DNA from: Alternaria dauci
Taxonomy: Eukaryota > Ascomycota > Dothideomycetes > Pleosporales > Pleosporaceae
DNA: 64,000 nucleotides
Direction of reading: 5' to 3'
Assembly: GCF_042100115.1 (NCBI RefSeq)
Contig: NC_091272.1
Span: 5,642,001 to 5,706,000 of the forward strand
The notes below the pieces were generated by a model. The model was given only the letters and a program-made list of their open reading frames with translations. It was not told the DNA's origin and made no database searches. The position numbers were made by a program, and so were the translations under genes. Within the stretch, counting starts at the first letter, position 1. Each line of letters begins with the position of its first letter. Positions 22,084 to 64,000 of this stretch are shown here, piece after piece.

Positions 22084-22262
22084 CGTAGTACTTGTGGTGA
22101 TGGTACTTTGTAATAGTACTTGTGGTGGTGATGGTACTTGCAATAGTACTTGTGGTGATGGTACTTTGATAATAGTACAGTACTTGTGATGATAGTACTT
22201 TGATGATGGTATAGTACTCGTGGTGATGATGGTACTTTGTAGTGGTAGTACTTGTAGTGGTT
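22084..22262 (+). repeat. Degenerate minisatellite upstream of the RING gene
   Basis: The unit AGTACTTGTGGTGATGGTAC with variable TTTGTAAT-type spacers recurs about six to seven times. It lies immediately upstream of the RING start and so may overlap its 5' UTR. All frames through it are open Tyr/His/Thr/Ser-rich strings, which explains the long spurious frames there. Confidence 0.85.
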
Positions 22263-30850: not shown

Positions 30851-31038
30851 GTGTGAATCGCTCATTAGTCACCGTGGCCTATTGTACTGGTACGAGTTTA
30901 CCAGCCTTGATAAATGAACAAGAATTGATGCAAAAGTATTCGCTAGTGATTTGTTTTCTGAATTACGGTGCTGACCGAGGGTATCTTTCATACGGCGTCC
31001 AAACTACGAACATGAACATTAAACTAAAAGGAAACTAA

Positions 31039-32559: not shown

Positions 32560-33311
32560 GTTGGCGGTGGCAACAGACAGCAAATGTCAGACTCCGTTGT
32601 TAGGTCCGAGCGATGAACGAATCTGTCGGTACTTTGGCCACGATATATATATATACACATATATATCCAAGCGTGCATGTAATGCCATGCAAAGGCCTTG
32701 TCCTTGCACGGCGCACTGATAGTCGATAACCCGCGTGGTATCAGCACAGCGGTATCTTGGAATCCGGGGCATTGTGGGCTGGCGGGATCCACAAGCCCCG
32801 TTGTTTTGGAGGCTGATAGTGGCGATAGAGCGGTACTGGCGACTCCAACGCCGACGCGACTCAGGCGCAGGGGTGTCTCCAATGATATCCCAGCCTCTTG
32901 GTACCTGCCCATCGGGGGTCGTCGCAACTCCAACTGATTGCGGAGATTGTGAGCTGAGGGGCTTGGAGGGCTTGTGGTTTGTCTTGGCTGGTAGTTGGAG
33001 TCGCGATTAGTACGTTGGTTGGGTTCGGTATCTTTAGTGTACACTATGCAGGTCATTATTTTTGCATCAGCGATTGCGGTTCCCGGGCGAAGTTAGTTTT
33101 CTGGAAAGTAGTTCGCGCGGGGCTAGGCTGTGCATTGCCGTGATCTACCTATCTCACAGAAATGACGAATGAGTGGTATCGCTGTGTTTGATCGACTGCC
33201 AGTCAATCTTTGAACGGCGGTTGCAATGCAATTGGGATATCATTGTTATGAAAAAATCGTTCAAAGAAGCATTATCAGATAGTTGGTAGTTGCATCGATT
33301 CGAGGATCTGG
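32560..33311. promoter_or_regulatory. Permease promoter region with ACTCCAAC octamers and AT tract
   Basis: The octamer ACTCCAAC occurs at 32842-32849 and 32927-32934, and inverted (GTTGGAGT) at 32994-33001, that is 280-440 bp upstream of the permease start. An alternating AT tract at 32643-32668 lies 84-109 bp upstream of the start and could serve as a TATA element. The same octamer recurs in the neighbouring divergent promoter. Function is inferred from clustering only. Confidence 0.5.
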
Positions 33312-34398
33312 CTACTCTTTCAATTTAAGCCCTGCTTCTGCCGGCATGAGCGCTCCCTCGGGTGGTGGGTTCTTCTTCTTGAACTCATCCGCCATCTGTT
33401 CCATGGTTACGAACTCCACACCTTCATGCTTCTTGAAATGTTCGATCAATCTCTCGTGCATCAAGAGCAGATGTGGTCGCCCAGACACGTCAGGGTGGAT
33501 TGTGATAGGCTAGAGGGTCGCGTTAGATCGGCCAATACAACACATGTGTACCTCAGTCGGAACTTACGAAGATGAACTCGTCGTATTCGCGGTAGAAGTA
33601 GTCGAAATGGTCTCTCCATAGGTCCTCGGTGTCTCGTGCGTTGACGAAGCCGTGGCTGTTTGGCGAAGATTTGATAAACATGTGAGGTGGCAGATCCTAA
33701 TGTCATCTGTTAGCAAGTAGCTTATATCGTACCACTGACCATACATACATCAAGATACCAGTTTGCTGGAATCTCAACCAAACCAGTCTGTTGGCCGGCA
33801 ACGAGCGGCTTCATCCAATCTTTGGCTTTCTTCTCGTAGTCAATCTTGGTCCAGGAGTCTCCAGTCCTGAGATAGTAAGGTTGACAGTCGTGATGGCTCA
33901 TGCTGTGGTCGTATTCGATGCCATAAGAAAGGAGTAGCTCGGCACCTTCGCGGCTCGTCTCCCACCTCAAAGAAAGTCAGCATGGCGCATAGTTTGATTG
34001 CCTCCGTCGACCTACCAAGGCGCAACACTTCCCCTTGGAGGTTTGCCAGCAAACTCGGTCAACATGCGATATGTCTTGTCAAGCACGTCCCGTTGTTGTT
34101 CCATGCTCATATCGACGGGGTTCTCGTGACTGTAACCGTGGAGACCTATTTCATGCCCAGCGTCGCGTACCGCAGCCATGTCTTCTGGAAATGTCTCCAA
34201 ACTATGGCCTGGAATGAACCATGTGGTCTTCATGTCATACTTCTTGAACAGCTTCAAGAGGCGCTGCGTACCGACCGTGCCAGCGAACAGGCCACGTGAA
34301 ATGTCGCTGGTGCTGTCTTCTCCGCCATACGACCCAAGCCATCCACATACCGCATCTACATCGACACCATATGAAATGAGAACGCGCTTCTTGCCCAT
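33312..34398 (-). CDS. NodB-type (CE4) polysaccharide deacetylase / cyclic-imidase-like hydrolase
   Basis: Four exons (34398-34016, 33965-33749, 33696-33568, 33509-33312) give 308 aa. The CE4 metal site is visible: D13/D15 in YGVDVDAV, then H87 and H91 in LHGYSHENP. Further family marks are [50 protein letters not shown] and the C-terminal [10 protein letters not shown]. This set is that of the small intracellular HpPgdA-like branch. It has no signal peptide and no chitin-binding module, which argues against a cell-wall chitin deacetylase. From memory, some bacterial members of this branch are cyclic imide hydrolases, so a small-molecule C-N hydrolase is plausible. It is divergent from the alcohol dehydrogenase over 471 bp. 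Confidence 0.87.
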
Positions 34399-34869
34399 GA
34401 TAGCTGTGTTGTGAGGAAAGATGGTGGTGGTCTGTCGATCAAGGTACTGGATCGGTTTCCGAGGTCAATGGCAGAAACTGTCAGCCGGATTTGTGTGGAA
34501 GCACCAAGACCACATGGTTGATCCGGCATTACTTCCTCTTAATGCCATGATGCCGACCCTGAGAACCATCGCGGGGTAATTAGCAGATAGAATGGTGCTG
34601 GAGCCGGCGGCGGCTTGTGTATTTCGTCATTGGACGTGGCAGCTGGTCCCTGCCTCCACAACGGCGCGCTCGCTTATCAGTCCCGTCTTATCGTCGACCC
34701 CAATAACTCCAACTCACATCTCCAACTCCAACTCCATCCGAATTCGGTCCTACGTGTGGGGACAAGCAATTGCATGAAGCTATGATGACGAAGACACCGG
34801 CATTGAACCCAGTGATGCAGCACAGTCATTTGAGTACGTTCGTAATTCATTCCGAATATACGTGACAAG
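34399..34869. promoter_or_regulatory. Divergent promoter, deacetylase / alcohol dehydrogenase
   Basis: Two exact ACTCCAAC octamers (34706-34713 and 34725-34732) with a near copy TCTCCAAC at 34719-34726 lie between the two starts. These form an irregular CTCCAA array. The arrangement suggests shared control of the two enzymes. Confidence 0.55.
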
Positions 34870-36038
34870 ATGCGCGCAGCACAGATCGTAGAGGTATGAT
34901 GACGTCACACGAACTCGTGGAAGCCCATCTAACAAAGGCGTTTAGTACGAGAAATCATATCAACTATGTGAGCGAGCAACACCTCAGTGCGGAGATCATG
35001 ACCTCCTCATCGAGGTCTACGCAGCTGGATTTTGTCACTCTGACTTGCAAGTATGGAATGGCCAATTCCCTGCACAACTTCCAATGATTCCATCGCATGA
35101 GCCTGCTGGCAAGATCGTTCAGGTCGGCGCGAACGTTCAAGGTTCATGGAAGGTCGGAGATCGCGTGGGTGTTTTGAACTATAAAAATGCATGTGGGCAG
35201 TGCGCAGGATGCCGCCAGCACCCACGAAGATCCAAACGTCCTGATCCGCGCTTCTGTCAGAAACGAATCGTGGCTGGCTTCAGACACGATGGCGCATTCG
35301 CAGAATATATGCTGGCCGACCCAGAAACCACTGTCCACCTCCCCAGCGGAGTTTCTTTCGAACAGGGGGCGCCTTTGATGTGTGCTGGAGTAAGTTGACC
35401 TGATATCCTGATCGCAAGCGAGACACCATGGCTAACATCATCAAAAGGCGACAGTATGGGGCGCATTGCGAAAACTTAGTCCCCAGGTCCAGCCAGGCGA
35501 CGCTGTAGCGGTGGTAGGCATCGGAGGTCTTGGGCAGCTTGGAGTGCAATTTTCCAAAGCCCTTGGATACAGGACCATAGCGATGGATAACCGTGACGAA
35601 GGTCGTCAGCTTGCGCTCGACTTGCCCGAGCACTTGAGGCCCGATTTAGTCATGGACTCAACCGCAGAAGACGCCGAACAGAAGATACTAGAGTTCACTT
35701 CCGGCGAAGGTCTCGCAGGCATCGTAGTGTGTACCGATTCGATACAAGCGAACGCCTGGTGCCTCCAGCAACTGGGCAATGGTGGTGTTATGGTCCCGCT
35801 GGGACTACCGAAAGACAAGTGGCAGTTCGACTCGGAAGCCATGGTATTTCATGAGCTTACTATCAAGGGAAGCTATGTCGCTAGTGCTGAGGAGGTCGAG
35901 TCGATGCTCGAAGTGGTGGCCAAGCACGGAATTTCGTCGCATTTGACCGTCATAGGCTTCTCGGAAATTCCCAGCCTCGTCGACAGGTATCTGCATGCAT
36001 CGATGAAAGGCCGATTAGTCGTCAATATCAAGCAATAA
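34870..36038 (+). CDS. Zinc-dependent alcohol dehydrogenase (MDR family)
   Basis: Three exons (34870-34893, 34946-35389, 35448-36038) give 352 aa. The first exon is only 24 nt and encodes MRAAQIVE. Catalytic-zinc ligands C38 (AAGFCHSDL) and H59/E60 (PSHEPAGKIV) are present. The structural-zinc lobe has C91, C94 and C97 (ACGQCAGCRQH), but the fourth Cys is C112, leaving 14 residues in place of the usual 7. The NAD-binding fold is VVGIGGLGQLGVQFSKALG. The C-terminal block MKGRLVVNI is standard. Expected reaction is reversible oxidation of a primary or secondary alcohol with NAD(P). It lies 252 bp upstream of the amidase on the same strand and shares a promoter with the deacetylase. Confidence 0.9.
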
Positions 36039-36290
36039 GATTCCATTTACGCGGAAATCATGGGTGCCAAGTGTTGCCGCGGAGCGGTTGAGGCGGATCG
36101 TGCCACGAGTTGGGGTTATTTGGAGAGCTTTCGCGTTAGCATGACTTGTGGAACCACCGACCCACCTACACACGATTGGCTACATAGTACGTAAAAGTAT
36201 TTCCTCTACATCAATATGTACACTACTGTCCCATAGCAACACAAAGCCTAGCATCTGCTTGTATCTTTTCAGTCATCGGCCTTTACCATT

Positions 36291-38043
36291 ATGTCTGTCT
36301 TTTTTGACTCTCCTCTAAAGTCAGTAACAACAACGGCACTATTTCCATAGAGCACATACTGACACGAATCAAGTGAGGATCTGGTGGCTGTGGGCGACGC
36401 AGAAGCCGTGTTGGAAAGCATCGGTGTTACCAATGGCATACCAGCAAACGAATCCCAGGATTATCATCAGCTATTAGCTGCTGTTCATGACGTTGCAGAG
36501 CACATACTACAACTGCCCGACTATACAGCACGGACAGATACTGAAAAGTATCCACGCGAGCATATACATCGACCGTCAGCAGACGAGCAGGATTTTGGTA
36601 ACGCTTGGGCCCACAAGTTCCTCATAAGAGGCAATCCGCAAGGAAGCTTGTTGAAAGGAAAGACGCTATGTCTCAAAGACAATGTCGCAGTAGCTGGAGT
36701 GCCACAATTCTTTGGAACAGACGCCATTCCCGCGTGGACACCCGATGACGACGCCACCGTAGTTAGAAGAGCTCTAGATGCTGGTGCGGACGTCGTGGGA
36801 ACGACTATATGCGAGAACTTCTGCAACTCCACCTCATCCTTTACCTCGGCCCAAGGTACTGTCCATAACCCATACGCGAGAGGTTACTCGGCTGGCGGTA
36901 GTACATCTGGCGGTTGCGCAGTAGTCGGCGGCGGTCTTGTAGACATTGCAATAGGCGCCGATCAAGGTGGAAGTATCCGCGTCCCATCGTCTTTCTGTGG
37001 CTGTGAGTATACCATAGGTGCAGTGCATAGCAGTATCCGGTTGTCCAGGGCTGACTTTGGGAAACACAGGTGTCGGACTGAAGCCAACACATGGTTTAGT
37101 CCCTTACACCGGAATATCTAGCGGTGACGCTATCGATGATCACGCTGGGCCCATAGCAAGATCAGTAAGCGACGTAGCATTATGCCTTGACGCGATCAGT
37201 GGGAAAGACGACTACGATGATCGTACACTTGGTGCACCAGCGCACGGTTCGACACGGTACTCGAAGGATCTCCAGAATTTAGTCGCGGGACTCAAGATTG
37301 GCGTTCTCAAAGAAGGGTTTGAGCACCGAATCGTCAATCAAGAAGTCAGGTCAACCGTAAGGAAAGCCATTCAGTCTTTTGAACGTCTTGGTGCTACGGT
37401 CGAAGAGGTTTCGCTACCTCTTCATCTAGAAGGACCAGCTATCTGGACCATCCAGCAGCGGATCGCAGGTACTCTCAACATGTTGGGCTATGCACACGGT
37501 CGAAGAGGTCTCTTTTCAACAGCGTATGAGGCAGCAAGGCAGCCATGGACGAACGAAACTTTCCAGAAACTCTTCCCGTCCACGAAAAATACCATCATCA
37601 ACGGCCTCTCGCTCATGCAAAACTACCCGGGTCTTTATGCAAAGACGATGAACCTCGCCCAACAGCTCCGAGACTCTTATGAAAAGCTTTTTGAAGAATA
37701 TGATCTTATCGTCATGCCAACGACCCCGTTTGTAGCGCCACCGAACATTGATTGGAAGCGCGGGGAGGACGCACCAATGGATGCGCTGAAGCCAAGTATG
37801 GGTATCACCATCAACACCGCCATCTTCGATGTTACAGGCCATCCGGCTATGTCACTCCCCGTTGGGTTTTCTCCTTCGAGTGTCGATCCCGAAGTCAGGT
37901 TGCCGGTTGGAATGCAGCTTGTTGGCGGCTTGTGGCAGGAGCAGAAGATACTAGATGCGGCTTTTGCGTGGGAGTCGGCAAACGACTGGAAAAAGATTGG
38001 CATTCCGACAGACCAAGAGTCAAAGCTTGCCACAAAGCTATGA
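36291..38043 (+). CDS. Amidase-signature amidohydrolase
   Basis: Three exons (36291-36319, 36374-37002, 37070-38043) give 543 aa. The Ser-cisSer-Lys triad of the amidase signature is visible: K111 (LKDNVAVAG), S186 (GYSAGGSTSGG) and S210 (GADQGGSIRVPSSF), with the 24-residue spacing between serines known from FAAH-type enzymes. The block FCGCVGLKPTHGLVPYTG is rebuilt across the second intron. The 29-nt first exon is inferred (GTCAGT donor) because the main frame lacks an ATG at its start and begins mid-domain-free. The C-terminal GMQLVGGLWQEQKILDAAFAWE is typical. No signal peptide is seen, so it is probably cytosolic. It hydrolyses a C-N amide bond, releasing ammonia or an amine. Confidence 0.88.
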
Positions 38044-38110
38044 AGATATACTTTTTAGATCTTTGATATTTAGATGCAATATATCCCATCGTCATTGCGA
38101 ACTGTGTTGA

Positions 38111-39024
38111 TCAGTTGATTGTGTAGCCGCCATCCACAACGAGCGCATGCCCTTGGATGAAAGACGCCTGTTCCGAGCACAAGAAGAGAACTGCGTCGGC
38201 GACTTCCTCCGGCGTACCCATCCTCTTCATAGGTGCAATCTCAATGGCCGGCTTCAATGCCTCCACCATGGCCGGCGATGTGGTCGTCATTGGTGTTTCA
38301 ATGACGCCCGGGCAAACGCAGTTCACGCGAATAGCATCGTCGCTGTAATCAATGGCATTCGCACGTGTCATGTTGATTATGGCAGCTTTTGAGGCGCAAT
38401 ATGCAGCTGTAGGGTCCTCGTCAATCCGGAGTTCAACATGTCACGAAATAAATGACTTACCAGCACCTGGCCTTGCCACAATACCGAGCTGACTCGCAAT
38501 ATTGACAATCGAACCTCGTTGCTTGGGATGCTGATCCAGGGGCTTCTGCTTCAGCATGTTCCTCAGCTGCGCGCGACAGCTGAGCCACGACCCCTTGTAG
38601 TTGATAGCGTTTAGTCGGTCAAAGTGCTCAGTGGTCATGTCCACTGCTTTGACAACATCGCCCCCAAGTACGCCTGCGCAGTTGACTCCATAGTCCAATC
38701 TTTTGAATTTAGTAAACACCTCATCGTTGAACTCGTCAACGAAAGCTTCGTCGGCGACATCTCCAGCTCTGTGGAAGACTTGAGCTGAAGGGTTGATGTT
38801 TAGTATGGCGGCTTTGGTCTGGTCAAGGGTCTTCGGGTTCAAGTCGGTGATTGCGATCCGCGAACATCCTGATCGGGCGAAGCCTTTGGCCACGGCCGCC
38901 CCAATGCCTGTGTGCCGTGAGTATGTATGCAGGAAGACAACGTATCGATGAGCAACTGCTTACCCGTTCCTCCAGCGCCTGTGATGACTGCTACACCCGG
39001 GAGTAGTCTTGCAAGCGATGCCAT
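38111..39024 (-). CDS. Short-chain dehydrogenase/reductase (SDR)
   Basis: Three exons (39024-38964, 38907-38461, 38406-38111) give 267 aa, normal for a classical SDR. The coenzyme loop TGAGGTGIG (residues 15-23) is created by splicing of exons 1 and 2. NCAGVLGG, NIASQLGIVA (catalytic Ser) and Y172-x3-K176 (AYCASKAAII) follow, the last across the second intron. CPGVIETPM and the C-terminal SFIQGHALVVDGGYTIN complete the family pattern. DLNPKT after strand 2 suggests NAD preference (acidic residue). It converges on the amidase with a 67-bp gap and is divergent from the C2H2-MHR regulator, so it belongs physically to the cluster. Confidence 0.9.
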
Positions 39025-39370
39025 TCTGCTGACCTGCGACTACGTGTGCTCAAGGGGCTGGCTCTTCTGCGTTGCGGTCAAAGACTAGCGTCGTCACGAT
39101 CGACCAAGATAGGCGCTCGTTGTTTGACTTGCTGCGGTCGTGTCCGTACTCTGCAAAGATTTACCACCGACATGGCGCCCTGCCGGGGATGCATTGACAG
39201 CTCTTCCCGTTGAGGTCCGCTATCTTGGAGTAAGCGGAACGGGTGCTCCGAAGAAGGCGCGCTAGGCACGGCACTATCTACCCCTCAGACTCAATTGGCC
39301 GAGGGCAAAACCTAGAAGTGAAGTCAATGACCCACCTCACTCCAATTCCATCTCCAACAATTCTCACCAC
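39025..39370. promoter_or_regulatory. Divergent promoter, SDR / C2H2-MHR regulator
   Basis: This 346-bp stretch holds near-matches to the cluster octamer: ACTCCAAT at 39339-39346 and TCTCCAAC just after. It probably contains promoters for both the dehydrogenase and the regulator. Confidence 0.5.
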
Positions 39371-41762
39371 ATGCACGGTCTCGCTCACGTTTGTAGTCAC
39401 TGCTCAAGAAGCTTCAAGCGAGCAGAGCATCTCATCCGTCATACCCGAACACGTTCGTGCCTCCAAATAAGCGACTCCACGCTGACGGTGGCGTAGTAAC
39501 TGATGTCGCCATAGATACTAGAGAGAAGCCTTACTCGTGTCGGTGCGGAGCAGCTTTTACAAGGCGGGACCTGCTTACCAGGCATTGGCGCATCACTCAT
39601 CATGCCGGCAACCCTGATGCAGAGTCGACAACGTCGACCGAGACTGCCACGACGATAGACGCTTCTGCTTTGAACGTGCCCGGCGCAGGGGCCGCCGAGG
39701 CGCATCTCGTCCCGCAAGCCCATTCACATCAGCTCGAACTGCATACTCATCCTCCTCCGACTTTCCAGGAGCTCCAGCAGCCGCCGCCTTACAACGATGA
39801 AGGATTCGAGGACTTTCGCGACTTTGTAAACTTCATCGACGGTGTTGGACTGTCAGCCCAATGGACGCCTGAGTACGATTTTGACTGGATGCGACTGGGT
39901 GAGCATCATCAACAGTCCCGGCGGCATTCTCGGGAGCCAGAGGCACAGTCATCTCCTGGTCCTGAAGATATTGGAACACCTTTCAGCACATGGCTACCAT
40001 CGGCGCCAGCTGACGATCAAGTCAATGTGAGATCAAACAGAGATGATGGTGAGAGGAGAACGAGGAGTGGAACATACAATGTCACGGACGAACATCGCAA
40101 TTTCTTGGTGTCACTACTCGAGAGCTTTCCTTCTCCCATCTGCGATTTCCAGATACCCTCTCGACATACACTTACTAGGTATATCACCGCATTCTTTGGT
40201 GGCTTCCACTCGCACTTCCCTTTCATCCATGCGCCAACATACAAGCCGTCGTGTTCGCCCTTGGAGCTGACCCTGGCTATGTGTGCTGCGGGAGCACAAT
40301 ATTGCTTCGAGCGACGAAGCTCAGAACGCCTCTTTCGTGTATCAAAAGCCATTGTCTTCCAACGCCTGCGGCAGGAAGAGTCACACTTTGGTCCACAGAC
40401 TCTTGCCTTTATCGCTTCAACAAATATAGTCTCACCGGAAGCGCATTTCACCACCAGACGTGTAGGGCCATGGTCGCCTCTGGATCTAGCGAAGACCTTG
40501 TTGATCCTGGTGGGATTCGCGACATGGGAAAGGAAAGATCTACTACAGCAAGCATTCGCACTCAGAGGTCTTTTGGTCCAAACACTTCGAGATATCGGCC
40601 TTAAGGAAGAGGAACCTAGCAGGAACGTTTCCACTTCCAGGGCAGCAATGTGGGACCAATGGGTGCAGCACGAGTCATCCAGACGTACCAAGCTCGTAGC
40701 ATTCTGTTATATCAATGTGCATAGCATTGCATACAACATCCATCCCCTGCTTTGGAGTAGCGAACTGCATCTGCGATTGCCTTGCTGCACACCAGTGTGG
40801 CAAGCTAACAGCGCCGCACAATGGTCTGCGCTACAACGGGACGGGCGAGAGGATCACATGCCCTTCCAACAAGCGTTATCGATACTTTTGCAGGGCACAG
40901 CAGAGCAAGGTCAGCCATCCAAGCAACGGTTCCTCATCTACGGTTGAAGATTGACTGACATGCCTCAGAACCTGTACATCCGATACCCAGTCCAATCGGA
41001 AACTACATTCTTCTTCATGCATTGCTCCAGCGCATTCATGTAGTACGAGAACTGTCTTTTCCCGCCACCTCGCCCGCCACAATATCAGCTACAGAGCTGC
41101 ATGTCATCAGTCGCGCTCTCCGCGCGTGGACTTCGCTTTGGCAACAAACTCCGGAATCCATGCTAGATCCCAACAATGAGAGTGGGCCAATCCCATTCAC
41201 ATCAAGCGCACTGTTGGTCGTGGCTTACGTGCGCCTGTCACTCGATATTGGGCCTTACCGTCACCTGGAGTCGCGCAGCCCCGAAGTCGTAGCTGACGGT
41301 CTAGCCAACGTTCCAGATATTGAACGCAATGACAACTTACTGTCGGCTCTGTTGTACTCGACACATGCGCTTAGCATACCTGTCAGATTAGGAATCGACA
41401 GAGTTGCGCGAAGCCAAGCGTTCTTTTGGAGCGTTCAGCATGCCATATCTAGCTTCGAGTGCGCTATATTCCTCGGCAAGTGGTTATGCTCTATCCCAAG
41501 GCCATTCCGGGACGACATGCTGTCGCGGTCAGAGCATCGTATCCTTCACTGGGTCCGGTGCATCATCAAAGAGGCGTATGCGGTGATTGACTTTGACGAT
41601 GTGGAAGAGGGCGACAGCATCCTAGCTGTACCTAGTGAGCCCTACACGCTTGGTCTTGCTGTCCTGAATATCTGGTCACGATTCTTTCGCGGCAACACGC
41701 AATGGCAGTTTGTGGTTAATTTAGGATTGAGTTTAGAGAAATACATTGCAAAGCTGGTTTAG
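39371..41762 (+). CDS. C2H2 zinc-finger transcription factor with fungal_trans (MHR) domain
   Basis: Three exons (39371-39452, 39515-40909, 40969-41762) give 756 aa. Finger 1 is C8/C11/H24/H28 (VCSHCSRSFKRAEHLIRH), and the first intron interrupts the H28 codon. A TREKPY linker follows, then finger 2 C36/C38/H51/H56 (YSCRCGAAFTRRDLLTRH), with one residue between the cysteines instead of the usual two. The body is the fungal-specific MHR region (YITAFFGGFHSHFPFIHAPTY is its entry, given as AFFGGFHSHFPFIHAP; later ALCAAGAQYCFE-like CAAGAQYCFERR and NYILLHALLQRIHVVRE across intron 2). Such proteins are nuclear regulators, often of an adjacent metabolic cluster. Starting here requires the ATG at 39371; a further upstream exon cannot be excluded. 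Confidence 0.85.
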
Positions 41763-42640
41763 TCCAGAGATCCAGTTCCTTTCCCCATTGTTCTCGAGTC
41801 GAGATACTCTTCTAGCAGCGTGCGCATCATGTCGGTGGTTGGCAAAGGGTGGCAAAGGATAGTCACCACGGGGTTTCTCCAGGTACGATCTGATCGAGGT
41901 GCCGGGGCTCTGCCATATGCGTCACCACCTGGTAAGGCTGATATTGCCCACTTCAATTTGGGCTGTCTTCCTACCTAGTCAATAAGTTTAATGAGCAATA
42001 ACCATGGCTATATTTGCTTCGCCCTCTGCGATATTGGCACGTCTGCTCTCATCGCGACTGTTAAATTCCGTGTCTATTGTCTGGTGCGCATCGCGCTTCG
42101 ATTTGCTCATTCCATGGCGGGCGTGACATGTTGCGGAAGGGCGGGATCAACTCGGCTCTTGTTGCAACGACACCTCTCACACGCGTCGCGCACTCCAGTG
42201 GCAACTGGCGCCTATTAGAGGCATCGAGCATCACCGAAGACATCGTTTGGGCGTCGCCATGCGTGGAGTCGTGATTGAATGTGCAGAGGCACGCGCAATA
42301 CACGCCAAATCAGCCGCAGAACTGCGCCGAGGTTCGCACGGTTTGTGCCGCTTGGACCTACCTAGGGAAAATCCCACTCCACTCCCAGCCATCACCATCG
42401 TTTCTATTGCGATCGCCTTGCACGTGTTCTTGAGGTGAAGTACGCAAACCATATATCAAGCATAGGGTTGAGTACAATGAACGACGCTTGCAGACAGCTT
42501 TGGCGCACGACCCGACTACCACCGCTTCCGCCCTCATGTAACAAGACCAGTGCCTTCGACAACCATATCAGGCCAGCAACAACAGTCACCCAATACACCT
42601 CGCAACTTAGTCCTTGACATCATTGGGCGCGGTTGCAGTC
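41763..42640. other. Intergenic region upstream of the second MHR regulator
   Basis: This 878-bp stretch was searched in all frames for a Zn2Cys6 or C2H2 exon belonging to the downstream regulator. None was found. Short open frames (for example 42247-42438) have no convincing zinc-cluster spacing. Confidence 0.5.
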
Positions 42641-44691
42641 ATGGAACATAATCAGGATAGGTTTTCGCCATCCGACGTCCCCCTGGAGGAACACCGACCT
42701 TCGAAGCGACAACGAACACTGGGACAGCCCGCTCGCGAAGTTGGCTTGATGCGCAGCGTTCCAGACGATCAGTTCCCAGGTTTTGTCGGCAGCGCGAGTG
42801 GAATCTTCTTCATCAGGTCGGTGTATAGTGCGATTCGACCGTCCACAGTGCCTACCGGTACTACCGCAGAAACGCCTGGCAGCGATATCGTACCAGGTGA
42901 AGACGATCATCTGCCTCTAGTGCAACCCAATTCTTCTGGGCTGTTATGGCGAGACGCTGAAATCGCGTCCAATCAGGCATCTCATATATCATTCCAAGAC
43001 CTCGTCGCATTTTCTGGGAGCTATTTTGCCAATTGGCACACGCTTTACCCCTTCTTACACGCTCCGACTGTCTTAGAATACTTCGACCGCTATTCAAAAA
43101 ACGGCTTTCCCGAACGTGATGCTTCGGAAAACCTTGATCTGGTGATAATTCGATCGATCATGTCCATCTCGCTTGCAGACCATCGACAATCCTCCGGACA
43201 TGAATACACTCCATATCCTGCCTGTATCGTCTTTCCATCGTACGATGCCGCTGTCGATAGCCTCCGGGCGATTCTTTCACGTCCCACAAGCATACTTACG
43301 CTGCAGGCCGCTCTCAGTGTGCAGCTCTTTCTAGTGTCCATGCTCCGCTTGAACGCAGCCTCACGCATCGGAGGACTCATCATGCGCATGGCAGTGCAGC
43401 TAGGCCTTCATCGCTGCCCAGCTAGGTTTTCGGCTTTTACGGCGAGTGCAAGAGAGCTTCGGCAACGTGTATTCTGGTCACTGTATGCCATCGATCGGTT
43501 CATTTCCCAGTCCATGGGCCTCCCACTCGGCCTGCAGGATGACGATATCGACGTATGCTTCCCCTTAGCAGAAAACCATCCGCAGACGCAAATTGAGCCT
43601 TGTAAGTTTGGTCTCGATGTGGCAATGGTCTAGCTCATGTTTCACAGGCATCAAACTGCGTCTGCTGCATCTTCTTGCGCAGCAAGCCAGGTTACGCGGC
43701 GAAATTATAGAGTTGCGCAACAAGTCGTTACACTACGTTCAGAACGATCCCGACCGAGCCACGTCGATCACAGCCAAGCTGAGTCAGTGGTGGAACGATG
43801 TTGAGGACTACATGGATCCAGACAGCCAATGCGGAGCCTCTACCTACGCGACTACTGTCCTGACGTTGCTTAGGCACGAGTCGATCATCTCATTGCATCG
43901 TCCAGTCTTGGCCACCTCTCGCAAAGACGTCGCATACGACGCTGCCTTGCAACAGTGCATCAATTCTGCGCGTAACATCATCACGACTCTACACAGCGCT
44001 ATCCAGACCAAGCCCAGTATCGGAGCGAATAATGGTCGACTAGCTTTGCTGTGGCCCTCTTGCACATGGGCTGTATGGATCAGTACCTTTATCTTGTTCT
44101 ACGCTGCTCACGAGAGCCGTATCGCTCACAACGTTGTCGTGAGGTAAATGGGCCACACTCAAGATAGCATATCCCTGCTGACACATGTAACAAAGATTCG
44201 CGGACAAAAGCCTCGACATACTTCAACATCTTGCGAGACGCGGCAGCGCATGGCCTGAGGCAAGCTCGGCAGCCATTCGTGACTTACGGGCTCGAATACT
44301 GCACAAGCCTGCTCTTGCTCTTGATAGACACAAGCCCGACGTCTCCGGAGACGCATCTATCACTTATCAGGGCGATCCAAGTCTACGTTCGGTCGTGAAT
44401 GAACCTGCCCGTGACGATGCCCTAGATCAGAATGGTGACCAAATGGCGAATGGCATCGCTCCTCACCATGATCCATTGCACAAGCTACCCAATTCAGGAT
44501 TCGAGTCTACTGCAACGAGTGATCCGGCGCAAGATGCAACTGGCCTTAGTGAAAACGATAGCTACTGGAATGTCTTCCTCGGAGCGGAAGGTGCCGACGC
44601 TTCATCTCTTGAGTACTCCAGCGGCTTGGATCCTTTCTCTGGTTTTGACATACCTTTTTGGTTCGACCAAGAGCAACACTGGGATTTCTAA
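42641..44691 (+). CDS. Fungal-specific transcription factor (MHR domain), no DNA-binding domain seen
   Basis: Three exons (42641-43601, 43648-44143, 44196-44691) give 650 aa. The N-terminus is short and basic (EEHRPSKRQRTLGQ, a possible nuclear signal). The MHR follows: FVGSASGIFFIRSVYSAI, ANWHTLYPFLHAPTVLEYF, then the core SRIGGLIMRMAVQLGLHRCP and RQRVFWSLYAIDRFISQSMGLPLGLQDDDID. The middle helix set (TTVLTLLRHESIISLHRPVL) spans exon 2, and an acidic Asp/Ser/Phe-rich C-terminus could be an activation domain. Normally a Zn2Cys6 cluster precedes YVGSSSGI-type motifs by 50-100 residues. Here it is absent, either truly lost or on an unrecognised upstream exon. Confidence 0.83.
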
Positions 44692-52555: not shown

Positions 52556-54530
52556 GTCACAAGTATCGTGGTGGCTGCATCTGAACTCAACGGTTCTGGG
52601 AAAAGACGTTGCAGTTGGCGCTCACGAAGTGGGTTCCGAAGCCGCTTGGGAGGTCGCCGCATTCCTTCTGAGGGGTGTGAAACATCCATGGATAAGAATA
52701 GTGGGAGAAGACGATGCATAACTTGTGGCTGTTCAGGCATAACTCAGTCTTGCTCGCAATCTGTCCAACATGTGGAATAATGAATCGGTCTTTCTCTCTA
52801 CGATTACACATAAGCTTCTCATGGTTATTGTAGCCCACCGTCAGCATTTCCTGACTTGCGCGCTGTCAGTCGAACTACGGCTTTCATACAAGGCCGATAT
52901 CATGTTCCGCACCGTTCCCCATCCTGCTGACCGGTTCCACGACCTAGTACGCGGCGCAGCAACATGTCAAACTGGACCTTGTACTCATGGCGGCAACATA
53001 TCGCCTGAGATTCCTCATCGCCAGCCCCTCGAATAACGCAATGAGTTGGCAAATGCGCGAACATCCACCTCCACCTCCACCTTAAACTTGCAAGTTCGTT
53101 TCTATGACACGATCCACCCAATAGTTCGTGCTCTCATGCGACCATGTCACCGATCAAGCGACGGCGGCTACAGGATACTGATCTCCGGCTGATCGGGACT
53201 TGTGGAGAATATCCCGAACGAATGGGAATCTAGCGGCTTTGAAACAACAACAGACGGGCATGATCTTGGCCAGTGAGGGTACACGACGACCGCAGCGAAG
53301 CCTCGATTGCCGCGACCCGACAGCCTGGATTTAGCCTACGCCGCTCCTGGTACACGTGTCAGTAGCTGGAGAACGTCGAATGGCATACTGAGCCTCAAGC
53401 CACGGTAGTATCAAGGTAGTAAGCGAAGTGTTGGATGTAGATGGAGGGCTAGGTAATGTGAGACATAGCACCATCCTCTCAGCGTATCTAGGCATGCTTT
53501 ACCTTTTTCATGGAAAAGCTGCTGTTGCACATCTGCCTCGATAGCAGCGCGCGCCGTCACGTGAATCCTGCTTCATGCATGCATGTGTTGTATGCTTTTC
53601 ACCGAGACTACGAATGCACGATGGAAGCGACATGGAATATTCGAAAAATAGACGCATGGCTAAATATTCCTCGGCGCTGATTGGCCGCTATTAATAAGTG
53701 GGGTTGTCGGCTCCGCGCCTAACGATAGCGCAACCCCACTATCGCGACCCCCCAAGAAATCCTCGAAACATTGTCGTCTGAACCGCTTCCACGACCACAA
53801 CCCCGCGCTCATGTTCATGCGATAACCTCCGAGGCTGGACAGCTGTATCGTCATTCGCTCGATCAGCATATCCAACATGTCCCTCCAGCCTCCCCATTCT
53901 CACATTGGCTACAGCGGGCGATGAGGCTCGAAGCGCTTATCCAACTGTGCCGCAACGTCATCCAAAACGTGATCTCATGATGGGGCCAAAAAAACTAAGA
54001 ATAAGCCTAGCTGCATATGTTTTAATACCACAGCGGCAACGAGATACGCTAGCCTAGGCATGCGGCCACACCCAGCGGCTATACTCACGCTCTGTACGGC
54101 TACACCCACACCGGTGCTCCGGCCTGACAGATCCCGAGGCCTGCGCCGCACGCAAGTGTCCTGGAAACGGTCTTCAGCCGCCTCGCTTGGCGCACCTTTT
54201 GGGAGGTTGGTTCTGGTCCTTGCGGCTAGCTCGTGCCATGAATGGTGCGTTGGCTCGGTAATGCACCAGTTTCCAGAACGAAGGCATAGTTTGCATGGAC
54301 GCCGCAGTAACAACTGTGTTTGATGTTTCGAGCTTGCTCCAATCATGGAAATGGTCGGTGGAGGCTTATACTGCAGCTGGATGTCGTTATAGTATGGTGA
54401 TGGTAAGTACCTGGTATCAGCCTGCAGCTTCATCACAGTCTGGCACTTCTCTACTACGTTTGAACGAAGCAACGTCTTACCATTTTACTCGTTCATATAC
54501 ATATTCTAATTCACATTTTTGTATGTCTTA
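52556..54530. other. Intergenic region upstream of the DUF3176 gene
   Basis: This 1.98-kb stretch has no gene I can support. Short CCACCT repeats occur near 53068. Frames of 60-165 codons on both strands are shadows without domains. It marks the edge between the transporter region and the duplicated membrane-protein region. Confidence 0.45.
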
Positions 54531-57020
54531 ATGCCTTACCCGATATCAACGACGGGCCACAACGGAAATATGTCTGGATCTCAGCGCAGTCCTATGCGCT
54601 CACCAGCTTTTCCAGATATTCCAATCTACCTAGATACTGGTGATGAACGTATGACAGCAAAAACATACGGTACAACTCCCACGACACCTACAACACCAGA
54701 AATCTCAACTCATCCTCGGCCAACTCACCTGAGCCCTGCCCATATCAATGCACCGCCTATTAGCCCTGTGGAAGCAAGCCCAACGACCACTATCGAAACA
54801 TGCAGTCAACGGTCAGTCATCTGGCCAATTCCAGAGCCCCCACCAGAGATTCAACAACAGCCTGAATCTCGACGACCAACTCTTCGCTTCTTTCCCACTC
54901 AGCGTCCACGCGTCCGACTGGATGCTATTTCCTCTCTACAAGTCCCAAGTTTGGACGAGAAGACGCCGATTCACATCACTCATCCAGGACTAGGTATCAT
55001 CAATGGTCTACCTAAGCCACCGTCCATCGAGGTCTCGCCACCTGTGCATGAAAAGTCTGAAGATGGGCCCAATATTGCACAGCGCATCGAAGAAACCCTG
55101 TGGCGATACAGTGCTTCTGGAAACGTGTTGAAGCGATGGTTGTTAGAGCTTGTCAGCTGGCTTTTCAGTGCTGTCTGTATGGCCGCTGTCATTGGCGTAC
55201 TCATCAAATTGAAAGATGAGCCACTATCGAAGTGGGCCTTGGCAGAGAAGACCGGCTTGACTCTGAACGCCTATATCTCTATACTATCCAAGATGGCAGG
55301 TGCTGCTCTTATCCTCCCAGTATCGGAAGCGCTTGGCCAGCTGAAATGGAGCTGGTTCCTGGAACACTCTAAGCAGATGTGGGATTTCGAAATCTTTGAC
55401 AACGCTTCCAGAGGACCCTGGGGATCTCTCTTACTTCTTATACGGACTAAGGGACGAGCCCTGGCAGCTTTAGGAGCTCTTATCATGTTATGCTCTTTGG
55501 CGCTTGATCCTTTCTTCCAACAGGTCGTCGACTTCCCAGACCGATGGGCCTTGCAGGATCTACCTGGCGCTATTCCTCGAGTAGTAAACTATCGGCCGCG
55601 GTACTTCAAGCAGATATATCAGGGTTTTGAGGTCCAACAATTCGATAACTCCATGTTGCCTGTCATAAAGTCGTACTTTTTTGACAATGGCACGACACCG
55701 ATTCCTTTTGGCAACGCTACAAAGGCCAACATACCGCTCTCCTGCCCATCTAGCAATTGCACCTGGCCGGAATATGAGACTCTTGCTGTTTGCAGTCAAT
55801 GTACCGATGCTTCGGATCTTCTTGAATTTGGTTGCCGGTATACTGCGATCGACTGGACTACCAACCATACAGGACCTATCAGTCCCGAGACGACGGAGAA
55901 CGGAACTGTGTGCGGTTACTTCCTTGACTTCGAATCCGAAAATCCGATCTTGATGTCAGGGTACATCCTTGAAGGCACCGAGAATCAGACCTCACCAGGC
56001 GAGGTGCTGATGGTACGAACATACCCTTTCACCGACATGAACACGAAAGAACCAATCATGGGAGGCTCCGTCAAGTTCAAGCACATTCGCAACCCCATTC
56101 TAGATGCTTTGATAGTGTCAACTGCAAACGGTACCGCTGGTGTCCTCAACCACGAACGGCCTGTTGCTCATGAATGCGCATTGTCGTGGTGCGTCAAAAC
56201 TATCAGCTCTTCGTACGATGGGGGAAAATACACCGAGAATGTTACCGGCGTCTATATGAACGAAACGGCTGGATCATTCCCATGGGAAAGCGTCCCTGTA
56301 GACTTGGAAGACGGAACTACCGCTACTTTTGCCATGTATGCTCAAAACATCACTATCGAACGCGATGCTGTGCGACGGGATCATTCCTCACTTGCCGTCT
56401 CAGATGCTACGTATCGAGTCGACAACACCTCAGCATCCAATGTGATCATGGTATTTGATCAGATCTTCCCGTCCTACTACACAGACTTCGGTCCTTCCGG
56501 GAAACCTTTGCTGAGGTTTCTCGATGGGTTCGACGGACCTACATTTCGAGAGATGGACTTCAATCCGTGGTTAGCGCCCAATAACATTAGTCGGCATATG
56601 GAGAGGCTGGCGTCTGCGATGACTGATGTGATGAGATCAGACGAAAGCAGGGAGATGCTTTCTGGCGAATCGTATAGCCGCATCAACTATGTTTCAGTTC
56701 GTTGGGAATGGCTCACTCTTCCTCTAGGGTTGTTGTGTATTTCTTTCATTTTCCTTGCTGCTACGGTCACGAAATCAGCGCTCGAGCGGGATCGTGTAGG
56801 TGTTTGGAAGACGTCAGCATATGCAACTTTGCTTTATGGATTGCCAGACGAGATGACACAACATATCACAAGATCTTCGAGTATCGGAACGCCGAGAGCC
56901 AGAGCAAAAGAACTCAAGGTCAAATTGCAACCCAACCGTGGCTGGAGAATCTCTGGAAATCTCTTTTCGCCTTTCGCGCCGAAACCCAGATCAAACCAAC
57001 CTCCTCCAGGCTGGATATGA
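54531..57020 (+). CDS. DUF3176 family membrane protein, intact copy
   Basis: This is a single exon of 829 aa from the ATG at 54531. Residues 1-180 are Pro/Thr/Ser-rich and cytosolic. The DUF3176 core starts with WRYSASGNVLKRWLLELVSW and continues through three membrane segments (around residues 203-228, 255-275 and 313-335). The family signature is FEIFDNASRGPWGSLLLL, RTKGRALAALGALIM and DPFFQQVVD. A large lumenal or extracellular domain follows, with many N-x-S/T sites and Cys pairs (CPSSNCTWPEYETLAVCSQC). A last membrane helix lies near 725-750 (LTLPLGLLCISFIFLAATV), then a short tail ending PPPGWI. DUF3176 proteins are widespread in Pezizomycotina and unassigned. It serves as the reference for the two broken copies downstream. 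Confidence 0.9.
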   Translation: MPYPISTTGHNGNMSGSQRSPMRSPAFPDIPIYLDTGDERMTAKTYGTTPTTPTTPEISTHPRPTHLSPAHINAPPISPVEASPTTTIETCSQRSVIWPIPEPPPEIQQQPESRRPTLRFFPTQRPRVRLDAISSLQVPSLDEKTPIHITHPGLGIINGLPKPPSIEVSPPVHEKSEDGPNIAQRIEETLWRYSASGNVLKRWLLELVSWLFSAVCMAAVIGVLIKLKDEPLSKWALAEKTGLTLNAYISILSKMAGAALILPVSEALGQLKWSWFLEHSKQMWDFEIFDNASRGPWGSLLLLIRTKGRALAALGALIMLCSLALDPFFQQVVDFPDRWALQDLPGAIPRVVNYRPRYFKQIYQGFEVQQFDNSMLPVIKSYFFDNGTTPIPFGNATKANIPLSCPSSNCTWPEYETLAVCSQCTDASDLLEFGCRYTAIDWTTNHTGPISPETTENGTVCGYFLDFESENPILMSGYILEGTENQTSPGEVLMVRTYPFTDMNTKEPIMGGSVKFKHIRNPILDALIVSTANGTAGVLNHERPVAHECALSWCVKTISSSYDGGKYTENVTGVYMNETAGSFPWESVPVDLEDGTTATFAMYAQNITIERDAVRRDHSSLAVSDATYRVDNTSASNVIMVFDQIFPSYYTDFGPSGKPLLRFLDGFDGPTFREMDFNPWLAPNNISRHMERLASAMTDVMRSDESREMLSGESYSRINYVSVRWEWLTLPLGLLCISFIFLAATVTKSALERDRVGVWKTSAYATLLYGLPDEMTQHITRSSSIGTPRARAKELKVKLQPNRGWRISGNLFSPFAPKPRSNQPPPGWI

Positions 57021-57167: not shown

Positions 57168-57820
57168 TCAACCAAGGACAGCATCGAATGCCCGTTGGAT
57201 GAAGCTCCGTTTGGCACTACCACCTGGCTTCTTGATGATGCCTCGCTTGGCACTACCACCTGGTTTCTTGATGATACCTCGCTTGGCACTACCACCTGGT
57301 TTCTTGATGATACCTCGCTTGGCACTGCCACCTGGTTTCTTGATGATGCCCCGTTTGGCACTACCACCTGGCTTTTTGATGATACCTCGCTTGGTTGAGC
57401 CACCAGGTACTCGGACGAGACCTCTCTTTGGGGAGCCACCAGGTTTCCGGAGAAGACCTCTCTCCTCTAGCGGATCGGAGCCAATCTCCAACTCCTCAAC
57501 GTTATCGTCTTCTTCTGTGTCTCTTTCTTCTTGCTCGACAGTATCGCGCTTGCTCTCTTCATCGCTATCGTACACGACACTGAGCGGGGCGGGATCGGCC
57601 TTGGACCATCGCCTCAGAACATCACTGGCCAAGCCAATAACAGGATTGTTTCGGCGCGGCTCAACGATTGAAGTTTCTCTTTGAATGATCTATTATACCC
57701 TTTAGCGACTGTTTCATGGTACACGGCAGATCTTGTGTATCTTACCTGGTCTACTGGGACTGGTGCGGCTAGGATCGGAAGTAAAAACGACGCAATAAGG
57801 ATGATCATAGGTTTATGCAT
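57168..57820 (-). CDS. Secreted Kex2-processed repeat precursor (KEP / RiPP-like)
   Basis: Exons 57820-57746 and 57689-57168 give 198 aa. Residues 1-19 are a signal peptide (MHKPMIILIASFLLPILAA). An acidic pro-region (about 26-100) contains one Lys-Arg site (K72-R73). Residues 103-186 are seven tandem 12-mers, each ending Lys-Arg: GLLRKPGGSPKR, GLVRVPGGSTKR and five identical GIIKKPGGSAKR. The tail SFIQRAFDAVLG (187-198) is amphipathic. Lys-Arg is the Kex2 site, so Golgi processing with carboxypeptidase trimming would release GIIKKPGGSA-type peptides. The layout (signal, acidic spacer, repeated basic core, dibasic sites) is that of fungal Kex2-processed repeat proteins. No Tyr, Phe, Trp or Cys is in the core, so a ustiloxin-type cyclic product is unlikely. 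No UstYa-like (DUF3328) gene is in the window. Confidence 0.88.
57207..57458 (-). repeat. Seven tandem 36-bp coding repeats
   Basis: This is exactly 7 x 36 bp in frame with the precursor gene. The five 3'-proximal units (in the gene's sense) encode identical peptides but differ at synonymous sites. The first two units encode variants at three or four positions. Confidence 0.95.
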
Positions 57821-60509: not shown

Positions 60510-62026
60510 CCCAAACCGTACTTTCCAAAATTGAATAGGCCGCCTGTAAACCCCCAATCTCCGAAGCCATAGGTCAACTAAAATGGGCCTGGTTCCGCGG
60601 CAGCGAATCGAAAGACATGATCGACTTCGAGATATTCGACAAAGCTTCTCGTGGAGCCTGGGGTTCGTTCCTACTGCTCTTTCGCACAAAGGGCAGATCT
60701 CTGGCAGCGCTCGGCGCCATCCTCACCCTCCTCCTGCTGGCCGTGGATACATTCTTCCAACAGGTCACCGATCTTCCTGAACGATGGGAGCTCGACGGCT
60801 TCGGCGAGATCCCTCGTGTAGTGCGATACGAAGGCGATAACATGGAGATATATACGAAGATGGTCAGTCGAACACGATGGAAGACACGAATCAACAACAG
60901 GCTATGCTGAAGTTCTCTTATTACAACGGCAATAAGCCCGTCCTATTTGGGTCCGGGGATCGGCCAGACATACCATTATCGTGTCCGTCAAGTCGATGCG
61001 AATGGGACGAATACGATACGCTGGGGGTCTGCAGTGCGTGCACTAATGTTGATGACAACATCGATTTTCGGCGGCTCTATACATTTCAAGGATGTCTATC
61101 TGCCTTTCCTGGATGCTATAATTGTCAGTGCAGCCGACGGCACTGCTTCCAGTGTGTATGATCGTCAACGCCCAGTTGCTCAAGAGTGCATGCTATCATG
61201 GTGTGTCAAGACTCTCAAGTCCACCTACGCTTGGGGGAATTACGAAGAAACGGTGACCAAGACATTCCTCAATATGACTGCTCGTCAGCAGCAGTATCCA
61301 TGGACTGGTGGACCTATCGTGTCTCTTGGTGAGGAGGCCTTTCGGTCGTAATTTCAGGGAAACCTTAGCCTACACCGTCCTGGAACAAACTTAAGGGTTG
61401 ATGACTACGACATGTCAAATGAGACATTCGCAAGGACCCAGGCTCTATCTGATGAAATCTTTCCTTCAACGATCGCGGTCGCTAATACTTCATTACCACC
61501 TTGGTGGCGCATCATAATGAAAGCTTGGGGTCGCAATCAACTTCATCCCGTCACATCCTGTCCATGGCTCGCACCCAACAACGTTACTCAGTACCTCGAG
61601 AGGCTCGCAACTTCCATGACTAGTGTGGTGAGAACGCATAATAGTCATGATTTCGTCCGAGGGCGAGCCTATTCCTTGACTACTTTCATCGCCATCCATT
61701 GGGCATGGCTTACCTTTCCCCTTGCGCTTCTGTTGTTCAGCCTGCTTTTTCTTGTAGCGACTATCAGGAAAACGTCCAAGACCGTCGACAGTGGGATGGG
61801 CTTGTGGAAGACTTCCGCCTTACCAACACTGATATACAGTCTGCAGAAAGACACCCAAGAGGCTGTTGCCTTGCAAGGTCGATGTAATAATGAGTTGGAT
61901 AAAAAACCCAAGAAGATTCTCATTCGATTGCTTCCGAATCATGGTTGGAGAGTTTCTGGGCAGGTGCACACGTCACCAATGCCGAACACAAACACGAACC
62001 GGAGAGCACCTCCAGGATGGATCTGA
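60510..62026 (+). pseudogene. DUF3176 pseudogene, copy 2
   Basis: DUF3176 sequence is recognisable but spread over several frames. A TAG lies at 60536-60538, where related copies encode Ser or Ala. Then SEAIGQLKWAWF, DFEIFDKASRGAWG and TKGRSLAALGAI follow in one frame until about 60865. A frameshift moves to a second frame (FSYYNGNKPVLF, CPSSRCEWDEYDTLGVCSAC). Near 61060 another shift coincides with loss of about 90 residues relative to the intact copy (from the CSQC block straight to GGSIHFKDVYL). A TAA at 61349-61351 ends the third piece. The last piece (61391-62026) carries CPWLAPNNVTQYLERLAT, the C-terminal helix and the terminal PPGWI. It has several independent lesions and cannot make the full protein. 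Confidence 0.85.
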
Positions 62027-62861: not shown

Positions 62862-64000
62862 ATGATGTCACCACAACGAGAGAGGCAGCTACCCCTTTCA
62901 CTCGCGCAGCCGCAATACCCGTACTCCTCGTCAGTCGATGAAGGCTCGAATACACCAGCTCCGCCATCGTATCGAGCATCTGTCCATGACAAACATCCTC
63001 TCGATTTTCCAGGACGTATCGAACAGAAGCTAGCGCAATACAACACGTCCCAGAATGTATTCAAACGCTGGCTGTTCGAGATCATCAGCGTGTCGACAAG
63101 CGCTGTCTGCATGGGTAGGACAGCTTCGGCTCTGCCTGTTCTATACGTATGCTGACGCTGGCACCAGGCGCGATCATTGGATTACTCTATTTTCTTCATG
63201 ATCAACCTCTCAACAAATAGCCCCCAGGCTTGACCATCATCACGATCCTTTCGAAGATTGCCTCGGGAGCACTGATCCTACCTATATCAGAGGCCATTGG
63301 GCAGCTGAAGTGGACGTGGTTCCATGGGAAGAAATCCAGAGACGTATTCGATTTCGAAATTTTCGATAAAGCATCGCGTGGCGCATGGGGGGTCATTTAT
63401 GCTTTTGTGCCAAACAAAGGGCAGGTCACTCGCTGCTTTAGGCGCTCTTTTGACAGTTCTGCTACTGGCGATTGATACCTTCTTTCAACAAGTAACGGAT
63501 TTGCAGGAGCGCTGGACGTTGCAGGGAAATAGCTCCATTCCGCGGAGTATACGATATACCCCTTCCGACGTACTTACCTATGACAGCACATACGATGACA
63601 CGCCTCTGGCTCAGATGAACCAAGATCTCAAAAGGGCCCTAGATCCATTCTTGTATCACCAAAACGGCACGCGTCCTTTCCTTACGGAGGGTGGTCCTCA
63701 AGCAGAAATACCACTCGTATGCCCAACGAGTCGATGTGAGTGGCCGGCCTACCAGTCTCTGGGAGTTTGCAGTGCCTGCGAAGACGTTTCATACCTTCTT
63801 GAATATCACTGTCTTACCATGACGATGGACTGGGTCAGAAATGCAACTGGTCCTGGAACGGAAGATACCTATTCCAATGGTGAGATATACTTTTCATTAC
63901 TGCCGTCAGTCTCTATTATGCCAAGCAAAGCGATCATCTGATCACTTAACAAAATATACTGCGACTAACAACCTATCTACTCAGGCACCGCTTGCGGCTA
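62862..64000 (+). pseudogene. DUF3176 copy 3, probably a young pseudogene, cut by the window end
   Basis: The ATG at 62862 opens a Pro/Ser N-terminus and FKRWLFEIISVSTSAVCM. An intron at 63115-63167 has good borders and restores GAIIGLLYFLHDQPLNK. There an in-frame TAG (63218-63220) replaces an expected TGG (Trp). The frame then continues TIITILSKIASGALILPISE and FDFEIFDKASRGAWG. A run of six G (63387-63392), where five would keep frame, shifts into the frame carrying LLCQTKGRSLAALGALL through CPTSRCEWPAYQSLGVCSAC. A second intron (63880-63984) joins N-G to T-A-C-G, matching the intact copy. The gene continues past the window. Only two lesions are seen, and the G-run one may be a sequencing or assembly error. 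Confidence 0.8.

Follow-up and report, generated by a model that had tools for sequence, protein, structure and literature searches.

The gene at positions 57168-57820 of the window (the whole stretch of 64,000 nucleotides that was analysed) encodes, with a probability of about 0.85, a Kex2-processed repeat protein (KEP) of the linear-release type. This assignment is based on the repeat and Kex2 layout of the product, on the lack of a UstYa match within 1.9 Mb, and on the presence elsewhere in the genome of a separate alpha-pheromone precursor and of STE2. The kind of system is already known, and the gene, called here the KEP gene, adds to the published KEP class a new member with an unusual but consistent core pattern.

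Gene structure and coding status

The KEP gene lies on the minus strand (57820-57168) and comprises two exons with a product of 198 aa. Its position in the source genome (34.9 Mb, 10 contigs) is C1:5,699,168-5,699,820, on a contig of 7.05 Mb. The start codon opens MHKPMIILIASFLLPILAAPVPVDQ and a phase-0 intron begins after 75 nt. The parts of the gene are the following:

57746..57820, minus strand: exon 1, 25 codons, with the start, the signal-like peptide MHKPMIILIASFLLPILAA and then PVPVDQ; 24/25 residues identical in the Alternaria alternata protein P0001
57690..57745, minus strand: intron, 56 nt, phase 0, GTAAGA...TAG, 41% GC; read through without a gap in the P0001 protein
57168..57689, minus strand: exon 2, read from the sequence, with the pro-region, seven units and tail; stop codon at 57168-57170

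Many other GT/GC-AG joins are formally open at the locus; the join adopted here begins with a consensus donor, and in the multiple alignment, which is of proteins only, P0001 crosses the position of the exon junction without a gap. The 56-nt intron holds as a predicted GT-AG splice. The start of the protein, judged by eye, is formed by Lys, a hydrophobic core and Ala-Ala-Pro, and is signal-like, so the product carries a putative signal peptide. The coordinates, the intron, the signal-like start and the seven 12-residue units ending in Lys-Arg, five of them identical, had all been described in the earlier note and are all in the sequence of the minus strand, a strand that the note does not name.

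Tandem Repeats Finder located a 36-nt array at 57211-57394 (5.1 copies, 91% matches). Among the five identical units (GIIKKPGGSAKR) 6 of the 36 DNA columns are variable, all of them third positions and all silent. The chance that six random columns are all third positions is 4.7e-4 if columns are independent, an assumption that gene conversion would break. The locus might alternatively be a minisatellite that is open by chance, or the gene might lie on the opposite strand or in another frame, since other frames of the array are also open (one of them, on the plus strand, over 210 aa). In the remaining five frames, however, amino acids vary or stops are present across the array, and coding in another frame was rejected on these grounds. 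Silent-only variation is confined to the KEP frame and both exons are conserved in P0001, by which a chance minisatellite or other-strand gene is in effect refuted and keeps only a minute probability. The silent third-position variation, together with the read-through of the junction and the shared layout in P0001, argues at the sequence level that the KEP locus is a real, intact and conserved two-exon coding gene.

Organisation of the precursor

The KEP protein is formed by the signal-like start, a pro-region with an acidic end, seven 12-residue units ending in Lys-Arg and a 12-residue tail. The elements of exon 2, all on the minus strand, are the following:

57651..57656, minus strand: pro-region dibasic RR, residues 37-38; RR at the matching site in P0001
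57609..57614, minus strand: pro-region dibasic RR, residues 51-52; KR in P0001, still dibasic
57546..57551, minus strand: pro-region dibasic KR, residues 72-73; KR at the matching site in P0001
57459..57545, minus strand: acidic stretch, residues 74-102, computed net charge -13
57459..57470, minus strand: LEER (L-x-x-R) directly before unit 1, a possible expanded Kex2 site; LEDR in P0001, LDER in P0002
57423..57458, minus strand: unit 1, GLLRKPGGSP-KR, read from the sequence
57387..57422, minus strand: unit 2, GLVRVPGGST-KR; 11/12 identical to unit 2 of P0001
57207..57386, minus strand: units 3-7, GIIKKPGGSA-KR five times; six variable DNA columns, all silent
57171..57206, minus strand: C-terminal 12-residue tail, SFIQRAFDAVLG; 10/12 identical in P0001, with R5, L11 and G12 also in P0002

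The pro-region had been called acidic, which applies to the final 29 residues (74-102); the part from residue 20 to 73 is close to neutral, with a net charge of -1. The main core GIIKKPGGSA has a net charge of about +1.55 at pH 7.4 after removal of KR and a near-neutral hydropathy (GRAVY -0.06), and the array has a net charge of +27. Tyr, Phe, Trp and Cys are absent from the seven units; the tail holds two Phe and no Tyr. The computed m/z values (all 2+) are 464.285 for GIIKKPGGSA, 606.383 for its KR form, 491.296 for GLLRKPGGSP, 471.772 for GLVRVPGGST and 662.356 for the tail.

In all three family proteins (the KEP protein, P0001 and P0002) the first unit is preceded by L-x-x-R (LEER, LEDR and LDER, respectively) and not by a dibasic pair. 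This sequence has been described as an expanded Kex2 motif (PMC8528282); by the details given there on the motif, LEER fits best, the P2 Asp of LEDR is not among the residues named and the P3 Asp of LDER is called unfavourable. Cleavage after a single Arg is reported for some KEPs in Pichia (PMC9769878). The proposal of a complete design for multi-copy release through Kex2 is borne out by the KR-bounded repeats, with the exception of the entry to unit 1, where LEER takes the place of a dibasic site.

The three family proteins contain 36 dibasic sites. The 12 internal to units are followed by Pro in every case (12/12), the other 24 in none (0/24). According to a review, Pro at P1' impedes Kex2 (PMC12141369), and in the introduction of PMC3777899 Arg alone is accepted at P1, by which KK and RK would be spared regardless of Pro. 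In the Pichia P1' library of the latter paper (Table 2), the secretion yield with Pro, which is no direct measure of cutting, was within the range of other residues, so Pro may not fully shield the RR-P sites of the relatives. The literature on Pro shielding at P1' of Kex2 sites cuts both ways.

The tail keeps the 12-residue register of the units, yet it is a different peptide. The tail sites LIQR (A. alternata) and LVER (P0002) are L-x-x-R, the corresponding one in the KEP protein being FIQR; the tail might therefore be cut again.

Relatives and evolution of the repeat array

At least two relatives with E up to 1 were identified by a whole-protein search among 7987 scored candidates, chosen by most shared words. 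P0001 is a 187-aa protein of A. alternata (E 1.4e-82); BLASTP gives 71% identity across 100% of the query, and the multiple alignment 79%. P0002 is a JGI record of 112 aa (E 5.4e-21, 52% identity over 45% of the query). A profile of the three family proteins retrieved no further relatives among 7991 scored candidates. Pfam gave no match for P0001 and P0002, and for the KEP protein only a sub-threshold one to Ribosomal_L34e (E 0.57). Viral and prokaryotic contig collections yielded no KEP relatives, a result of little weight because the search patterns came mostly from the acidic part.

The number of units is 7 in the window, 6 in P0001 and 4 in P0002 (17 in total). The pattern G-[ILV]-[ILV]-[KR]-x-P-[GS]-G-x-x-[KR]-R fits 16/17 units. 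The exception is GDVQEESSSDKR in A. alternata, where the core GDVQEESSSD has lost the pattern; the array of this species is not homogenised. Identity to P0001 is 24/25 in exon 1, 44/48 in residues 26-73, 9/12 in unit 1, 11/12 in unit 2 and 10/12 in the tail, and R5, L11 and G12 of the tail are kept in 3/3 proteins. The central units vary both in sequence and in number, being five identical ones in the window and three divergent ones plus the misfit in A. alternata. With conserved ends and differing central units, the precursor keeps its overall framework and the central array appears, from the two species compared, to have been rebuilt lineage by lineage. The idea of a fast-evolving locus is consequently adequate for the central array and not for exon 1, residues 26-73 or the tail.

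A search of the genome with the KEP protein gave at least 51 further matches (E 1.8e-5 to 1e-3, 35-42% identity) at up to ~155 kb from contig ends, 150 of 188 candidates being scored. Repeats with a spacing of ~25 kb were observed near contig ends (for example C9:30-1019, C4:26902-155495 and C1:6953013-7028417), where the weak matches to the KEP repeat have 35-42% identity; these may be subtelomeric repeat blocks. The search with P0002 recovered the KEP gene (two overlapping rows) and one match at E 0.059, so no paralogue was counted in the source genome; low-identity paralogues are possible.

A control search with the DUF3176 neighbour of the KEP gene yielded 630 relatives with E values no higher than 1e-30. 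Many Pleosporales, among them Alternaria, Stemphylium, Pyrenophora, Bipolaris and Parastagonospora, are present among 120 of these 630. The identity of the neighbour is 95% to a JGI protein, 73% to the closest named relative among them (Pyrenochaeta sp.) and 71% to Alternaria arbusti. The protein database thus does hold Pleosporales, and the scarcity of KEP relatives reflects missed gene calls, relatives beyond the scored candidates or true rarity.

Genomic surroundings

Beside the KEP gene there is a tandem DUF3176 family of four copies on the plus strand, identified by Pfam and reading frames:

54510-57017, plus strand: DUF3176 copy 1, open throughout
60515-62023, plus strand: DUF3176 copy 2, three pieces, each with a stop; introns not excluded
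62871-64000, plus strand: DUF3176 copy 3, six stops, running on to L017:1057 (~1 kb past the window end); introns not excluded
L017:1822-3853, plus strand: DUF3176 copy 4, beyond the window, two frames, one stop; introns not excluded

The three downstream copies look decayed from their stops and frame changes, which introns might also account for. The earlier picture of duplicated and decaying membrane-protein genes is in this way upheld for the duplication and in part for the decay, the copy at 54510-57017 being open; nothing was found that ties these neighbours to the peptide.

Pfam covered 31 of the 62 non-overlapping open frames of at least 110 aa in the window. Frames matching an FMO-like protein, an amino-acid transporter, a zinc dehydrogenase, an amidase and two fungal transcription-factor domains were identified at 29896-43630, which could be a metabolic cluster. 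A minisatellite with several overlapping periods is located at 22086-22261, and a match to a chitin-synthase-type glycosyltransferase (PF03142) at L017:7849-9168, ~14 kb beyond the KEP gene. Neither Rfam, at its gathering threshold, nor a tRNA scan gave a match in the window. In the genome as a whole, there is one P-domain match (Kex2-type, in an 844-aa open frame) on C6 and a STE2 match on C2.

Mating-factor and dikaritin alternatives

The product could be a mating or pheromone-type factor, as its precursor layout is of the same kind and a P-G turn is found in some alpha-type pheromones. The genome, however, has a separate alpha-pheromone precursor on C8 (L011:1339-1626, region of C8:1243058) with a signal-like start, Glu-Ala (Ste13) repeats and two PYGLPI-type cores, besides the STE2 match. 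This precursor was recognised by the content of its open reading frame, since the PYGLPI search pattern gave 1 match against 1 and 1 for the reversed controls. The Pleosporales core, PYG[LM]P[IV]G, is reported from no other order (PMC6339444), so that the L011 precursor points to Pleosporales as the order of the source genome; the core is absent from the KEP protein. The Ste13 signature (X-A/X-P) is likewise absent after the inter-unit KR sites, where the residue pairs are G-L, G-I and S-F, and the units lack Tyr, Trp and Cys. The L011 precursor and the missing core and signature largely refute this reading, which is very improbable.

A cyclised dikaritin-like RiPP precursor would share the repeat and Kex2 layout as well. 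Dikaritins were looked for through a UstYa (DUF3328) within ~15 genes and a Tyr-containing core. No UstYa was identified within 1.9 Mb: the genome has 18 UstYa rows, and the nearest on C1 ends at 3.76 Mb, ~1.94 Mb away. The units contain no Tyr, Phe, Trp or Cys, and the tail, with its two Phe, has no Tyr either. This reading is disfavoured by the distance to UstYa and the lack of a Tyr core, and its probability is slighter still than that of a mating factor. The separation of the peptide from mating factors and from ustiloxin or phomopsin-type cores, made earlier from composition, is supported by the separate L011 gene and the distance to UstYa.

Proposed processing and function

For a KEP of linear type, signal peptidase would admit the chain to the ER, and Kex2 would cut after the KR sites and the RR and KR of the pro-region, possibly also after LEER before unit 1. 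The internal KK and RK pairs would escape because of Lys at P1 and the Pro that follows. A Kex1-like carboxypeptidase would then trim KR from the peptides. The predicted secreted products are the linear decapeptide GIIKKPGGSA in five copies, the variants GLLRKPGGSP and GLVRVPGGST in a single copy each, and the tail SFIQRAFDAVLG.

The released decapeptides might act as a precise extracellular ligand, an intraspecies or inter-hyphal signal, and not as a membrane-lytic toxin. Two features speak for a ligand and suggest that one exact shape has been selected: the variation is silent throughout, and the units share the G-hydrophobic-hydrophobic-basic-x-P-G-G pattern. Signalling is preferred on account of the purifying selection on the exact copies and of the short P-G-G core. 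This preference is weak, with odds somewhat short of even, and the argument for an exact ligand is weakened by the misfit unit and the unhomogenised array of A. alternata. The roles considered rank, in decreasing probability, as signal, antagonism, host-directed, surface and mating.

Antagonism is the second of these and the main rival, itself rather unlikely. Here the decapeptides or the tail would be cationic peptides inhibiting competing microbes, and the acidic stretch would neutralise the array until it is cut, in agreement with the charges of the core (~+1.55), the array (net +27) and the acidic stretch (net -13). With ten residues and a central P-G-G, however, the core lacks the length and the amphipathic helix of a classical lytic peptide. 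Nor does the tail stand out in its hydrophobic moment, which 6.1% of shuffled sequences reach; the corresponding shares are 6.1% for the tail of P0001 and 29% for that of P0002. In Coprinopsis, kep knockouts had no axenic phenotype, from which the authors propose roles in biotic interactions (PMC9769878); this would suit antagonism, and by analogy the outcome fits several of the proposed KEP roles.

The peptides could also be aimed at a plant host, as an effector or a plant-hormone mimic, which is less probable than antagonism. Alternaria is a genus with many plant-associated species, and P0001, the nearest named relative, is from Alternaria. Plant pathogens are known to have repeat effectors that are processed by Kex2 (PMC8528282). 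A surface or structural repeat protein, or a repellent-like hyphal coat, uncut or made of assembled fragments, is quite improbable: Rep1-type Kex2 repeat peptides do form fibrils on hyphae (PMC8528282), but the main core of the KEP gene is short, cationic and of near-neutral hydropathy.

A broader and doubtful proposal is that of a two-product family, in which multi-copy G-[IL]-[IL]-[KR]-[KR]-P-G-G-S decapeptides and a conserved C-terminal 12-mer would both be released, with Pro-shielded basic pairs and an L-x-x-R entry cut, as a linear non-mating signal. Such a family would be undescribed, and overlooked because its internal dibasics and its short gene of two exons escape KEP surveys and gene callers.

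For most KEP peptides no role is known (PMC7329392); the one of the KEP gene is small, cleanly defined and easily synthesised, with exact predicted masses. As it also has relatives, one in A. alternata and one in a JGI record, the processing, the L-x-x-R first cut, the Pro shielding and the choice between signal and antagonist are directly testable.

Comparison with known systems

The published KEP class comprises 7878 reported KEPs, most types being reported from a single genus (PMC7329392), and linear KEP peptides have been detected by mass spectrometry in other fungi (PMC9769878). By the 2019 rule (PMC6339444) a KEP has at least three similar fragments after KR/RR cutting, repeats covering at least 15% of the protein, and a signal peptide with no later membrane helix. 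The KEP protein yields six free GxxxxPGGxx-type fragments, five of them identical, while unit 1 is not released from the acidic stretch; the six 10-residue fragments amount to 60/198 residues and the seven 12-residue units to 84/198. By its repeats it is thus a KEP under the 2019 rule, with a signal peptide that is putative and 24/25 conserved in A. alternata over exon 1. The 2020 rule (PMC7329392) asks for at least three repeats of at least 8 aa between KR, KK, RK or RR. Taken literally it would leave the KEP protein out, as the five identical units would break at KK into GII and PGGSA; 3/4 units of P0002 would likewise break into GII or GLI plus PGGSA, and in P0001 no more than two units with the pattern would be left. 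Internal basic pairs may thus hide the KEP gene from surveys that count KR, KK, RK and RR alike with repeats of at least 8 aa, and if they truly hide such genes, existing KEP counts are underestimates.

The peptide family was not found described in the open papers searched: nine core and tail strings were absent from them, the scope being strings other than the window's own full tail and papers without their supplementary KEP tables. Searches that combined Alternaria with Kex2 or KEP led back to the two surveys (PMC6339444 and PMC7329392) and to no other paper. The earlier statement that no described peptide with this core is known stands for the strings in open papers, and the kind of system is a known one that fits the published KEP definition.

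With the KEP class (Le Marquer 2019, PMC6339444; Umemura 2020, PMC7329392) the gene shares, by the definitions in these surveys, the signal-like start, at least three near-identical KR-flanked fragments and repeats well above 15%, whereas G-[IL]-[IL]-[KR]-[KR]-P-G-G-S is not among the conserved cores named in the survey sections covered. The Umemura type G-9 (#16) contains 48 KEPs from 14 ascomycete genera, including Alternaria, Stemphylium and Pyrenophora, none of them near DUF3328 (PMC7329392, Table 2). The KEP gene family may or may not be this type: the Pfam names tabulated for G-9 did not appear for the three KEP-family proteins, in a comparison by description and not by repeat profile.

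The Pleosporales alpha-pheromone precursor has the common secreted Kex2 repeat design, but with its own core, Ste13 signatures and a separate gene in the genome. Ustiloxin and phomopsin-type (dikaritin) precursors have the same design, and the KEP gene differs in its lack of a nearby UstYa and of aromatics in the units. The Ustilago Rep1 repeat effectors likewise give several short Kex2-released peptides per precursor; as described in PMC8528282 they are set apart by their surface fibrils, in contrast to the short cationic cores of the KEP gene.
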